Part shown: in pieces, positions 1 to 34,219 of the stretch
How positions within the stretch are numbered: position 1 is the first letter of the stretch
Layout: each line of letters opens with the position of its first letter
IMG/VR virus record: IMGVR_UViG_3300044731_000587
Coordinates: 1-34,219 of that record
DNA from: a virus
Strand: one strand, 5' to 3'
Length of the DNA: 34,219 nt
Position numbers and translations under genes: made by a program
Notes under the pieces: model-generated
Seen by the model: the letters and a program-made list of their open reading frames with translations, nothing else
Database searches by the model: none
Told to the model about the DNA's origin: nothing

Positions 1-127
1 ATAAACCCTAACATTTTTCAAGTTATGCCAGTCAATTAATTCATCCTGCTTGCCGCCGTAACTAGCGGTTAAAACCAGGTTTTCGGGAATGTTGTCTATT
101 CGATTTACCCAATAACTAATTGACTTC
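1..127. repeat. Left copy of the 127-bp terminal direct repeat
   Basis: Bases 1-127 are identical to bases 34093-34219. An exact end repeat of 127 bases is what a circular or circularly permuted genome gives when assembled with a 127-base k-mer, so it is more likely an assembly overlap than a biological terminus. Removing one copy gives a unit of 34,092 bp and restores an open gene across the junction. Confidence 0.95.
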
Positions 128-26961: not shown

Positions 26962-28188
26962 TTATCTTTTGCCAGGTGTTGTAATGATTGAATCTTTTGT
27001 TTTTCTGCCAAGCAAACCAGTTACGCCGTAACGTATTGCGTCTAAAGCATGGTTAAAACGATCAACCGGTTTGTTAATACTTTTGCCTAATGAATCTGTT
27101 TGCCAAATGTAATTCTTTATTTCTTTTTGAATGTTAGGACTTCGAATTACATAAACAGGATATTGTTTAACTTTTTGGATCCCCTGAATAATGGAATCCG
27201 GTCCCTTTAAAATTGGCTGGATATTAAACCCGGTAATTAATATTTCCCGGATCGATTTTGGTTCGGCCGAATCGGCAAAAATTGTATCGTTTCTTTTAAT
27301 GCCTGCTTCGCTCATTCGCTTGCAAATTTCCGGATTTGTTAAACCATAATCGTAAATAAGCTCCTGGACGTAAATTGCGCCCTCTGACAACCTAATGTGA
27401 ACTAACGCGGTTGGATCGTTCGTAAAACCGAAATCCAGGGCGTAACATTCCATTTTAAAATTAGCTGGCATTGCCTCGAATGATTTCCAGTTATTATAAA
27501 CTTTACCCCTTTTACCGCCGCCCCAAAATCCGTAAACATCGGAACGGGCCGCTTCCGGATCTTCGATAATCATTCTTTCCAGAACTTTTATGTAATCTGG
27601 GTGCAAATTTTTATAGTTATCTTTATAGGTGGCATGAATTAGCAAAGTATCTTCCGGCCTAACCTTATCATGAAATTCAGATTTTAAAAAACAATCTTCG
27701 TTATCCGTGTTATAGGTGAATATTATTTCCAGTTCGGCGCCCTTCATCGATCGTAAACTTTTATCCAATTTATCGAAATCATCTTTGCCGACTTCATCGG
27801 CTTCCTCAATCCAGACAAACGTTGCTTCGGTTATCGACTTCATTTTAGCGGTCGAATTACCGGACGCGGCCCGAAACCCCTTTGCGAAGATCCGGTTACC
27901 GGTTCCCAGGTGGGTAATTTGCATTGTGTTTTCCAGTATATGAAAATCATTCTGCAATTTTTTTTCCTCGATAATATCAACAATTTGCTGGAATGAGCTT
28001 CCGCGAATATCGGCGTAATGTTGCCGGGCTAAAATGCCGCGAAAATACTCAGGCGAATATAACTTGGTTATAGCGTATTGCGCAACCTCAAACGAACGTC
28101 CGGCACCCCGGCCCCCGAATAAGTGCTTATATCGCTTCTTTTGCTTGTATAAATCGACGTATGCCGAATTAACGCTTAGCTGTTTCAT
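26962..28188 (-). CDS. terL: Terminase large subunit, 408 residues
   Basis: ATPase and nuclease of the DNA packaging motor. The Walker A-like motif is GGRGAGRS at 25-32 and the Walker B is VWIEEAD at 125-131. In the C-terminal RNase H-type nuclease, Asp252 (ALDFGFTND), Asp306 (IFADSAEP) and Asp383 (HALDAIRYG) are the three acidic residues. In the P-loop the usual lysine is arginine. The organisation is that of PBSX-type terminases. The start overlaps the end of the small terminase gene by 20 bases. Confidence 0.95.
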   Translation of the reverse strand: MKQLSVNSAYVDLYKQKKRYKHLFGGRGAGRSFEVAQYAITKLYSPEYFRGILARQHYADIRGSSFQQIVDIIEEKKLQNDFHILENTMQITHLGTGNRIFAKGFRAASGNSTAKMKSITEATFVWIEEADEVGKDDFDKLDKSLRSMKGAELEIIFTYNTDNEDCFLKSEFHDKVRPEDTLLIHATYKDNYKNLHPDYIKVLERMIIEDPEAARSDVYGFWGGGKRGKVYNNWKSFEAMPANFKMECYALDFGFTNDPTALVHIRLSEGAIYVQELIYDYGLTNPEICKRMSEAGIKRNDTIFADSAEPKSIREILITGFNIQPILKGPDSIIQGIQKVKQYPVYVIRSPNIQKEIKNYIWQTDSLGKSINKPVDRFNHALDAIRYGVTGLLGRKTKDSIITTPGKR

Positions 28189-28495
28189 CCATGTTCGTAA
28201 AAATAACGCGCAATGGTTCCCCGTCCTTGCCGGCGTGCTCGAACTTCTGGGTTACAGTTCCCCAACCCCGGTTTAATAAAACTTCCGAAGCGCGAATATC
28301 CCCTTTAGTTGCCTTGGCTCTTAATGCGATCAAAATTGCCTTGGCAGCGCAAACGCCGTCCTTTTCTTCGCTTAAAACTTCTGCTAATAGTGTATCTAAT
28401 TCAGGCAATTTTGGCGGGCGCCCGTTCGGGTTTCCGCTGGTCCCCTTTTCGAAGGGTTTTGCGCCTTCCGGGGTTTCTCCTTTTTTGAACGGCAT
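28169..28495 (-). CDS. Terminase small subunit-like protein (DUF5681-type), 108 residues
   Basis: The N-terminal GTSGNPNGRPPKLPEL is the signature of DUF5681-like proteins, which often precede the large terminase. It is followed by a helical part (AKAILIALRAKATKGDIRAS) with EVLLNRGWGTVTQKFEH. The frame is open up to 28543, but that stretch overlaps the methyltransferase gene. The ATG at 28493-28495 follows an A-rich leader and gives the expected KKGETPEG start. It should recognise the packaging site and recruit TerL. Confidence 0.8.
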   Translation of the reverse strand: MPFKKGETPEGAKPFEKGTSGNPNGRPPKLPELDTLLAEVLSEEKDGVCAAKAILIALRAKATKGDIRASEVLLNRGWGTVTQKFEHAGKDGEPLRVIFTNMDETAKR

Positions 28496-28527
28496 AATCG
28501 ATTTTATTTGTGTTTTATTTCTGTTAA

Positions 28528-29271
28528 TTATTCGTTGCTGCAAAAAATATACGTGTTAGGCGGGTAAAATGGATACGTTTCTAAATGCAGCGGAATCGTT
28601 CTGGAACTTTTAACTAATTTAAACAATGTTTTTAACTTTTCGATAACTGTAACATAGGTGCTAATTTTATTATCCATGTCGAAGGAATATTCGAAAACCA
28701 TTTTTTTAATATTTAAATTGTTTTCCAGCTCATTAATAATTGGGATTTCAGCGCCCTCAATATTCATTTTGATACAATTATAACCGTCCTTAATCAGTGA
28801 ATTAAACCCGGCGGCCGTTACGCTGGTTACGGTTATGTTTTTCTTTTTACTGCTATTTAGATAATTGCCGTAAAGCGTGTGGCGCCTGAACGAAGCCGGG
28901 TTAGTAGATTCATAAAAGTTTAATGTTTTGCCGTCTTGGCTTTGCGGAACAACCGCCGCTTTAATGATCTCGATTTTATCGGTAACATTATTTAATTCGG
29001 CATTTATCCGGATCATTTCACAATTATCAATTTGCGGTTCGTATGCTCTAACCTTGCAACCTTTTACAGCTGCATAACAAGCAAACGCCCCAATGTTAGC
29101 TCCCAGGTCCAACCACTTTTCGCCCTCGTTGATCGTAAACGGTAACATCGGTTTTTGATATGCTTTTCTAACCCAAGTTTCATCAATACTTTTTTGGTCG
29201 CTGGATCCATCACGTAAGGCGAATTTACCGGCTGTTTTCGTGTTCTTTGGAATGTAGATTGTTTTATTCAT
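28528..29271 (-). CDS. FkbM-type SAM-dependent methyltransferase, 247 residues
   Basis: The SAM-binding motif I is WLDLGANIGAFACYAA (53-68), motif II is VRAYEPQ (74-80), and KMNIEGAEIP (168-177) is the FkbM-specific acidic motif. FkbM enzymes usually methylate hydroxyl groups of small molecules or sugars. The gene overlaps the TET/JBP-like dioxygenase by eight bases and precedes the terminase. An O-methyl transfer onto the hydroxyl created by the dioxygenase is a plausible but unproven role. It does not have the PC or ENV motifs of a DNA cytosine-5 methyltransferase. Confidence 0.82.
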   Translation of the reverse strand: MNKTIYIPKNTKTAGKFALRDGSSDQKSIDETWVRKAYQKPMLPFTINEGEKWLDLGANIGAFACYAAVKGCKVRAYEPQIDNCEMIRINAELNNVTDKIEIIKAAVVPQSQDGKTLNFYESTNPASFRRHTLYGNYLNSSKKKNITVTSVTAAGFNSLIKDGYNCIKMNIEGAEIPIINELENNLNIKKMVFEYSFDMDNKISTYVTVIEKLKTLFKLVKSSRTIPLHLETYPFYPPNTYIFCSNE

Positions 29272-30124
29272 TATTTAGGTTTTTAAGGTGCTTTTTATAT
29301 CCGGTTAGCAAGTTTGGATCGCTTCGCCAACGGGATTCGATTTCGTTCCGGATTTCTTTTATTCGTTCTAATTCTAATTCGTACGGGTAACAATTTTTCA
29401 TGGTTGCCAGACTGTAAAAAACGCAAGAACTCCGGAACCCGTTTTCCTCGATTTGTTTTATAGGTGTAACGCCGTGAATGATCGCTTGCCCGTCAAATAA
29501 AATTAGCGCGCCGTCGCCCTGTTCGAATCCAATATTATATTCAGGGCAAATTAAATTACCGCCAATAATACCTTCTTTAATGATCAAAACATTTGAGTAA
29601 ACATTTTTGAAATTACCCGTGTCCCGGTGGTATTTAATAGCATGGTTTACATTAATGTTAATCGTTGTAAAAGGGGTATTTTTAATTAAATATTCCTTTT
29701 CAACATTTTCATCAATGATCTTTAAATTCATTTCGTATTGCTCAGGTAAAAGTTCCTTATAGATTTCATTAATTATTAAGCTGAAATCCATTACGGCGGC
29801 CGAAGATTTTTTTTGATTTTTTGTATCGGCGGTTATCCTGCAATAATTATTTCTATTCGGCACCCTGGGCAACGATCCGAAAATTGCTGCTTGGGAAGCT
29901 ATCCCGTTGCTTCTGGCACTTTTAGTGAATTTGATTTTATTAACTATTTTTTTTAATTTATTAATCTTTTCACTATCTATAATTTTATAAATAATGATCG
30001 CTTTTCCGCCTTCGTAGATAATGCAATCTTTATTTATGATCCTTGCGCAATCGGTTTTTTTCGGGGTTGTTTTTAATAAATGATCGAAATTGATTTCGGA
30101 TTTATTAACGTGTAAAACTTCCAT
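29264..30124 (-). CDS. TET/JBP-like 2-oxoglutarate/Fe(II) dioxygenase, 286 residues
   Basis: The C-terminal half has a double-stranded beta-helix signature. TTININVNHAIKYHRDTGNF supplies His166 and Asp168 (HxD), IIGGNLICPE is the typical strand turn, and FDGQAIIHGVTPI supplies His217, with Arg231 (RSS) binding 2-oxoglutarate. The HRDTGN, GG-L and HGVTP-RSS-VFYSL spacing is that of TET/JBP-type phage enzymes, which hydroxylate 5-methyl groups in DNA. No cytosine-5 methyltransferase is encoded, so the substrate may be thymine or host-made 5-methylcytosine. It is coupled to its neighbours. Confidence 0.8.
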   Translation of the reverse strand: MEVLHVNKSEINFDHLLKTTPKKTDCARIINKDCIIYEGGKAIIIYKIIDSEKINKLKKIVNKIKFTKSARSNGIASQAAIFGSLPRVPNRNNYCRITADTKNQKKSSAAVMDFSLIINEIYKELLPEQYEMNLKIIDENVEKEYLIKNTPFTTININVNHAIKYHRDTGNFKNVYSNVLIIKEGIIGGNLICPEYNIGFEQGDGALILFDGQAIIHGVTPIKQIEENGFRSSCVFYSLATMKNCYPYELELERIKEIRNEIESRWRSDPNLLTGYKKHLKNLNNE

Positions 30125-30125
30125 T

Positions 30126-30734
30126 TTAATGATTTAATATTAACCAGGAAATTGCTTCTGAATTGTTTTTAAATGCCTTATCGACTTTTAATTTATTGAG
30201 TTTAAATAATACTTCGTCGTAATCTTTTTTCTCGATAAATATCTCGAATTTCTTCATGTCTGAATTTAGATAATCCATTGCAAACTCGTCGGTATTTTTA
30301 TAACGATCCGTGTTGCTCATGTTATCGGTTATTTCTTCCGGATCTTCGGCACCGGGGTTATCTGGGATTCTCCAAACGTCCATTCCCCAGGAAGCTAAAT
30401 CGTTCGTTTCCCATTCGTTTGCCAGGTTGTCCCAGTCCCATTCACCGAACCCAACATTATCTTTAATTATAAATTCTTTTTGCTGGGCTTCTGTTAGATC
30501 GCTGGCAACTATAACCGGCACTTCCTTCAATTTTGCTTCTAAGCACGCTTTTAAGCGCATATTGCCGCCTAAAACGATGTTATGTTCGTTTATAACAATC
30601 GGTCGAATCCTGAGCATTTCGGGAAACTCTTTAATCGAGTTAACCAGCTTTAAAAATTTGTCGTCTTTAATGATCCGGGGGTTGTTCGGGTTCGGCTTAA
30701 TATCCGAAATCTTTAGGAGTGTAATTTCTATCAT
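30126..30734 (-). CDS. ParB/sulfiredoxin-fold protein, 202 residues
   Basis: Residues 1-95 form a ParB-like N-domain: LKISDIKPNPNNPR, IVINEHNIVLGGNMRLKACL and IVASDLTEAQQKEFIIKDN. The C-terminal part (100-202) lacks the usual ParB helix-turn-helix and is acidic. Phage proteins of this type are often found with DNA-modifying enzymes and terminases. It starts four bases after a TAACTTTG box and is followed one base later by the dioxygenase gene. It could bring the modifying enzymes to DNA, or be a nuclease; both are inferred. Confidence 0.8.
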   Translation of the reverse strand: MIEITLLKISDIKPNPNNPRIIKDDKFLKLVNSIKEFPEMLRIRPIVINEHNIVLGGNMRLKACLEAKLKEVPVIVASDLTEAQQKEFIIKDNVGFGEWDWDNLANEWETNDLASWGMDVWRIPDNPGAEDPEEITDNMSNTDRYKNTDEFAMDYLNSDMKKFEIFIEKKDYDEVLFKLNKLKVDKAFKNNSEAISWLILNH

Positions 30735-33967: not shown

Positions 33968-34219
33968 ATTACAACCGGTGCTTTTTTCTTGTGCTTAAAA
34001 TTATCTAACAGCGCGAAATTTACGCCTGGCACCCGGGCCCAATCGTCGTTATTATCAATCGGTCGGTCCTCGGGCACCTGGTCCGGATCCGAATAAACCC
34101 TAACATTTTTCAAGTTATGCCAGTCAATTAATTCATCCTGCTTGCCGCCGTAACTAGCGGTTAAAACCAGGTTTTCGGGAATGTTGTCTATTCGATTTAC
34201 CCAATAACTAATTGACTTC
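33964..34219 (-). CDS. Gp88-like phage protein, C-terminal part (gene crosses the map junction)
   Basis: This is the 3' end of the gene whose start is at 498. From 34092 the frame reads SDPDQVPEDRPIDNNDDWAR and ends FKHKKKAPVVI with TGA at 33964-33966; bases 34093-34219 repeat bases 1-127 and keep the same frame. The C-terminus is basic. It overlaps the replication gene by four bases. Joined, the protein is 208 residues. Confidence 0.75.
   Translation of the reverse strand, partial: KSISYWVNRIDNIPENLVLTASYGGKQDELIDWHNLKNVRVYSDPDQVPEDRPIDNNDDWARVPGVNFALLDNFKHKKKAPVVI
34093..34219. repeat. Right copy of the 127-bp terminal direct repeat
   Basis: This is the exact copy of bases 1-127. A reading frame runs through it from either side without a stop, supporting circular closure. 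Phages with real short direct terminal repeats exist, so packaging ends cannot be decided from this sequence alone. Confidence 0.95.

Follow-up and report, generated by a model that had tools for sequence, protein, structure and literature searches.

Phage TET clusters that carry glycosyltransferases and other tailoring enzymes are said to have been described by Iyer et al. in 2013 and Burke et al. in 2021, the latter reportedly dealing with phage TETs that act on 5-methylcytosine (5mC), with phage C5 methyltransferases alongside. In these hypermodification clusters, the TET/JBP gene lies near ParB and terminase genes and has a tailoring enzyme beside it, an arrangement shared by the locus analysed here. 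The known or predicted tailoring enzyme of the Iyer and Burke clusters is a glycosyltransferase or part of a kinase/transferase pathway, often accompanied by a phage C5 methyltransferase, whereas the present locus contains an FkbM-type partner and no C5 methyltransferase. The kinetoplastid base J pathway (JBP dioxygenase and glucosyltransferase) similarly combines hydroxylation of a base by a TET/JBP-family enzyme with later capping of the hydroxyl group. Its cap is glucose added by a glycosyltransferase, whereas a methyl cap added by a methyltransferase is predicted here. Phage cassettes containing the TET-associated glycosyltransferase TAGT (PF20691) have closely related TETs and the same ParB-X-TET slot, in which X is TAGT and not FkbM.

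The window, i.e., the whole stretch of DNA that was analysed, is a 34,219-bp IMG/VR virus record. Its cassette (30734-28528) consists of three genes arranged head-to-tail on the minus strand, in the order ParB, TET and FkbM. These genes encode a ParB-like protein of 202 aa (30126..30734; Pfam ParB_N, 5.7e-8; PHROG ParB-like families), a TET/JBP-type 2OG-Fe(II) dioxygenase of 286 aa (29264..30124; Pfam Tet_JBP, 4.2e-21; H166xD168, H217 and R231) and an FkbM-type SAM methyltransferase of 247 aa (28528..29271; Pfam Methyltransf_21, 2.4e-10; WLDLGANIGAF and KMNIEGAE motifs), respectively. The ParB and TET genes are separated by 1 bp, the TET and FkbM genes overlap by 8 bp, and FkbM overlaps the next gene by 16 bp. 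That gene encodes a DUF5681 protein, probably the small terminase subunit (28169..28543, minus strand; PF18932, 2.7e-12; weak PHROG match to terminase small subunit), and is followed by the large terminase gene (26962..28188, minus strand; Pfam Terminase_3, 2e-29), both directly downstream of the cassette. The three open reading frames and their families had been named in a preliminary description of the sequence, and the Pfam matches confirmed the families at exactly those coordinates. As part of the whole explanation developed below, it is fairly probable that the trio constitutes a cassette for tailoring DNA bases, in which the ParB-like protein is possibly the DNA-binding or targeting partner.

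The record carries a terminal direct repeat, the left copy of which (1..127, plus strand) matched the right copy (34093..34219, plus strand) at 127/127 positions in a blastn comparison of the two ends. A GP88 gene is split over both record ends and spans the join. Given this exact repeat and the divided gene, the record appears to hold an entire genome of ~34.1 kb, either circular or terminally redundant, and gene absences therefore carry weight. Six-frame searches of the window revealed no C5-cytosine methyltransferase (PF00145), as the preliminary description had stated, and no member of the thymidylate synthase/hydroxymethylase family (PF00303); TAGT (PF20691) was also absent from the record. 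Without PF00145 the window differs from a Burke-type cytosine system of TET and C5 methyltransferase, and without PF20691 it differs from a TET and TAGT glycosylation cassette. The remaining genes are ordinary for a tailed phage (RecT, exonuclease, portal, head protease, tape measure and DnaB). The host is likely a member of the Bacteroidota, since RecT is closest to that of phages of Leeuwenhoekiella and Riemerella (54–55%).

The dioxygenase scores 75.3 bits against Pfam Tet_JBP (cut-off 34.9). The Fe/2OG ligands, namely the HxD motif at 166/168, His217 and Arg231, the TET/JBP spacing of which had been noted from the window sequence, are invariant across 48 diverse viral TET relatives, as are N158, N171, R71 and the H217-GVTP motif. 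By profile alignment, N171 corresponds to the HRDxHN asparagine of TET2. The AlphaFold (AF2) model of the dioxygenase has a pLDDT of 93.2, and the best 26 matches in a Foldseek search against the PDB are CcTet, TET2, CMD1 and NgTET1, with FTO and AlkB ranking after them. The structural comparison, which the preliminary description had named as a way to refute its reading, therefore agrees with TET/JBP DNA oxygenases, and identity as a protein or small-molecule hydroxylase was rejected on the fold (top 26 PDB matches TET/JBP).

The FkbM protein scores 41.2 bits against Methyltransf_21 (cut-off 22.7), and its AF2 model (pLDDT 91.3) has a Rossmann methyltransferase fold. The SAM motif and a K-x-(D/N)-IEG-x-E motif are kept in the FkbM sequences, and K168, E172, G173, E175 and E194 are invariant among 44 of them. 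A fold search against the PDB returned generic Rossmann methyltransferases, and the acceptor is not visible from the fold. Known FkbM-family members methylate hydroxyl groups of natural products and sugars.

IMG/VR was scanned with the FkbM alignment alone, which yielded 80 viral loci. TET directly adjoins FkbM in 77 of these loci, is 2.5 kb away in one and is absent from two. The two exceptions (L088:8001-8696 and L132:8001-8627) are the sole viral FkbM relatives in this set for which no TET was detectable within the locus retrieved. When the FkbM proteins were reduced to 43 representatives at 80% identity, all but two were linked to TET. Of the 78 FkbM-first loci with a TET, 75 also contain a ParB gene. 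The gene order is FkbM–TET in 70 loci and TET–FkbM in seven, and one virus contains a natural fusion (L090:728–2335), a single 535-aa open reading frame with an N-terminal Tet_JBP domain and a C-terminal FkbM domain. A negative control was provided by an FkbM scan of genome contigs, in which only cellular homologues were found, with no prophage or host recovered, and none of the 73 loci has a TET beside FkbM. The arrangement of TET and FkbM thus exceeds chance (77/80 viral versus 0/73 cellular loci), and a chance neighbourhood was rejected on this linkage and on the fusion.

The pair is not unique to the window phage, as it is found in isolates as well as in many metagenomic viruses. Pelagibacter phage HTVC112P (gp17-gp19) and the Prochlorococcus phages MED4-117 and MED4-184/P-HS2 contain the same three genes as the window, with TET identities of 26-30%; the order in the Prochlorococcus phages is ParB-FkbM-TET. 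The pair in these isolates is mostly unrecognised and in part misannotated, with TET either unannotated or misannotated. The Tet_JBP protein of HTVC112P, gp18 (L001:5599-6507), is annotated as DnaJ/SNF2, and the ParB-like protein of MED4-117, CPWG_00024 (L008:6366-7007), as a DNA methylase. A further record, that of a huge phage (327 kb), contains two TET/JBP genes and three ParB-model matches within a single neighbourhood (L021:7135-11373).

Many TETs without FkbM have TAGT. TAGT is found in none of 37 FkbM-linked records, as against 11 of 24 TET records without an adjacent FkbM (Fisher 6e-6). A second sampling by TET alone within the FkbM-rich (sister) clade gave 54 non-redundant loci, comprising 18 with FkbM, 18 with TAGT, 18 with neither and none with both (Fisher p 1.3e-4). 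The count for TAGT is 18 or more; some loci of the class with neither contain divergent TAGTs (L240, Pfam 1.4e-8). Where present, FkbM and TAGT are always immediately upstream of TET in these 54 loci. The two labels interleave on the TET tree. Phylogenetically independent pairs for TAGT and FkbM numbered 0 varying the same way and about 4 the opposite way, so that every informative pair agrees with exclusivity, but too few are supported to reach significance (median p 0.125); the 54-row TET tree contains one supported pair, and exclusivity was not confirmed at the 5% level. A single distant locus (L026) has FkbM as well as TAGT in its neighbourhood, and as this is the only such case across the tree set, FkbM probably does not methylate a sugar added by TAGT. 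Other slot contents are GT-like proteins, or ADDT (amino acid:DNA transferase, PF18724) with P-loop and accessory genes. Multi-gene contents of the ParB–TET slot (L275:2720-4538, L248:330-2328 and L264:707-2253) include ADDT-, GATase-, GNAT- and DAO-like proteins and P-loop proteins. Five slot proteins of about 320 aa form a family; one of these (L251:2611-3585) has no Pfam match, resembles GT-B glycosyltransferases by eye, and is possibly another tailoring module.

The other occupants of the ParB–TET slot come from families known to tailor 5-hydroxymethyl pyrimidines in DNA. Because FkbM shares this slot with the TAGT and ADDT tailoring modules, it most likely O-methylates the hydroxymethyl group made by TET, which would give a 5-methoxymethyl pyrimidine. 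The same capping role had been put forward in the preliminary description, and the conserved linkage, the natural fusion and the exchange of FkbM and TAGT in one slot all support it. In the first step of the proposed pathway, the TET/JBP enzyme would act on phage DNA and hydroxylate a pyrimidine at its 5-methyl group, converting thymine to 5-hydroxymethyluracil or 5mC to 5-hydroxymethylcytosine (5hmC), as expected from the function of its family. In the second step, the FkbM-type enzyme, in the place held by TAGT in sister cassettes, would transfer a methyl group from SAM onto that hydroxyl to form 5-methoxymethyl-uracil or -cytosine. More speculatively, the ParB-like protein might bind DNA and direct the TET/FkbM pair, and the methyl cap might shield the DNA from restriction and/or mark it for packaging. 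This full explanation, comprising hydroxylation by TET, O-methyl capping by FkbM and targeting by ParB, is considered fairly probable.

Known FkbM substrates leave room for an enzyme that acts on a glycan, a capsid or a small molecule and is a mere neighbour of TET, since family members are known for methylating natural-product and sugar hydroxyls and the cellular homologues sit elsewhere, not beside TET. This is improbable, as the near-constant viral linkage to TET, the occurrence of both gene orders and the TET-FkbM fusion oppose it. Scarcely more probable is a reversed sequence of events, in which TET oxidises a methyl group previously added by FkbM. The predominance of loci with FkbM encoded upstream of TET would fit methylation before oxidation, as would a remote similarity of FkbM, by profile and fold, to uracil-C5 RNA methyltransferases, but that likeness covers the SAM-binding fold. 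A C5-methylating mechanism would need an invariant cysteine, and none exists among the 44 FkbM sequences (the best-kept cysteines, at positions 84 and 244, occur in 36 of the 44); FkbM was rejected as a C5 methyltransferase for this reason. The exchange of FkbM with TAGT, a tailoring enzyme, and its coexistence with a C5 methyltransferase in seven records also speak against methylation as the first step. The name of PHROG_6059, the family matched by the TET/JBP proteins, is queuine tRNA-ribosyltransferase, which might point to an RNA or a non-base substrate, e.g., in a queuosine-related pathway. Such a target is highly improbable, and the name looks like a misannotation, because Tet_JBP alone exceeds its cut-off in Pfam and the dioxygenase fold is that of TET/JBP.

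Capping of a TET-made hydroxymethyl group is compatible with either pyrimidine, and the version acting on cytosine sits inside the preferred explanation as the same mechanism on a different base, without being exclusive of it. TET would oxidise 5mC placed by a C5 methyltransferase of the host or, for some phages, of the phage itself, and FkbM would cap the resulting 5hmC to give 5-methoxymethylcytosine. The characterised phage TETs, those of Burke et al. from 2021, reportedly have 5mC as their substrate and occur alongside C5 methyltransferases of the phage. PF00145 is encoded in 7 of the 37 FkbM-linked records, so cytosine may be the modified base in some of these viruses; one of the records (L098) has the gene just upstream of the cassette. 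The alignment of the invariant N171 with the TET2 asparagine also fits cytosine. Against this, PF00145 is lacking in the apparently complete window genome as well as in HTVC112P and MED4-117, and C5 methyltransferases are not enriched with FkbM (7/37 versus 2/24, p 0.46). The cytosine version is accordingly a reasonable but minority possibility. For the window phage, the lack of a C5-cytosine methyltransferase in an apparently complete genome mildly favours thymine over host 5mC as the substrate, provided that DNA is modified by the cassette in the first place.

The adjacency of TET and FkbM genes in dozens of viruses suggests that a hydroxylated base in their DNA receives a methyl cap, a modification that, to our knowledge, has not been described to date. 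No report of a phage TET joined with FkbM, or of a methoxymethyl base in phage DNA, was found in the literature searched, although Iyer 2013 may mention a methyltransferase neighbour. There is a somewhat better than even chance that a widespread class of phages makes the undescribed base 5-methoxymethyluracil (or -cytosine) through hydroxylation by TET/JBP and then SAM-dependent O-methylation by FkbM, with FkbM as one of several interchangeable tailoring modules of a ParB-X-TET platform. Since isolates bearing the cassette exist, it is directly testable. If the proposal is true, O-methylation would join the caps already known for hydroxymethylated DNA bases, and a compact enzyme pair, fused in one virus, would be available for introducing a new base into DNA. 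The small uncharged ether cap would then be a new way of hiding DNA from restriction systems that recognise 5-hydroxymethylated or glucosylated bases.
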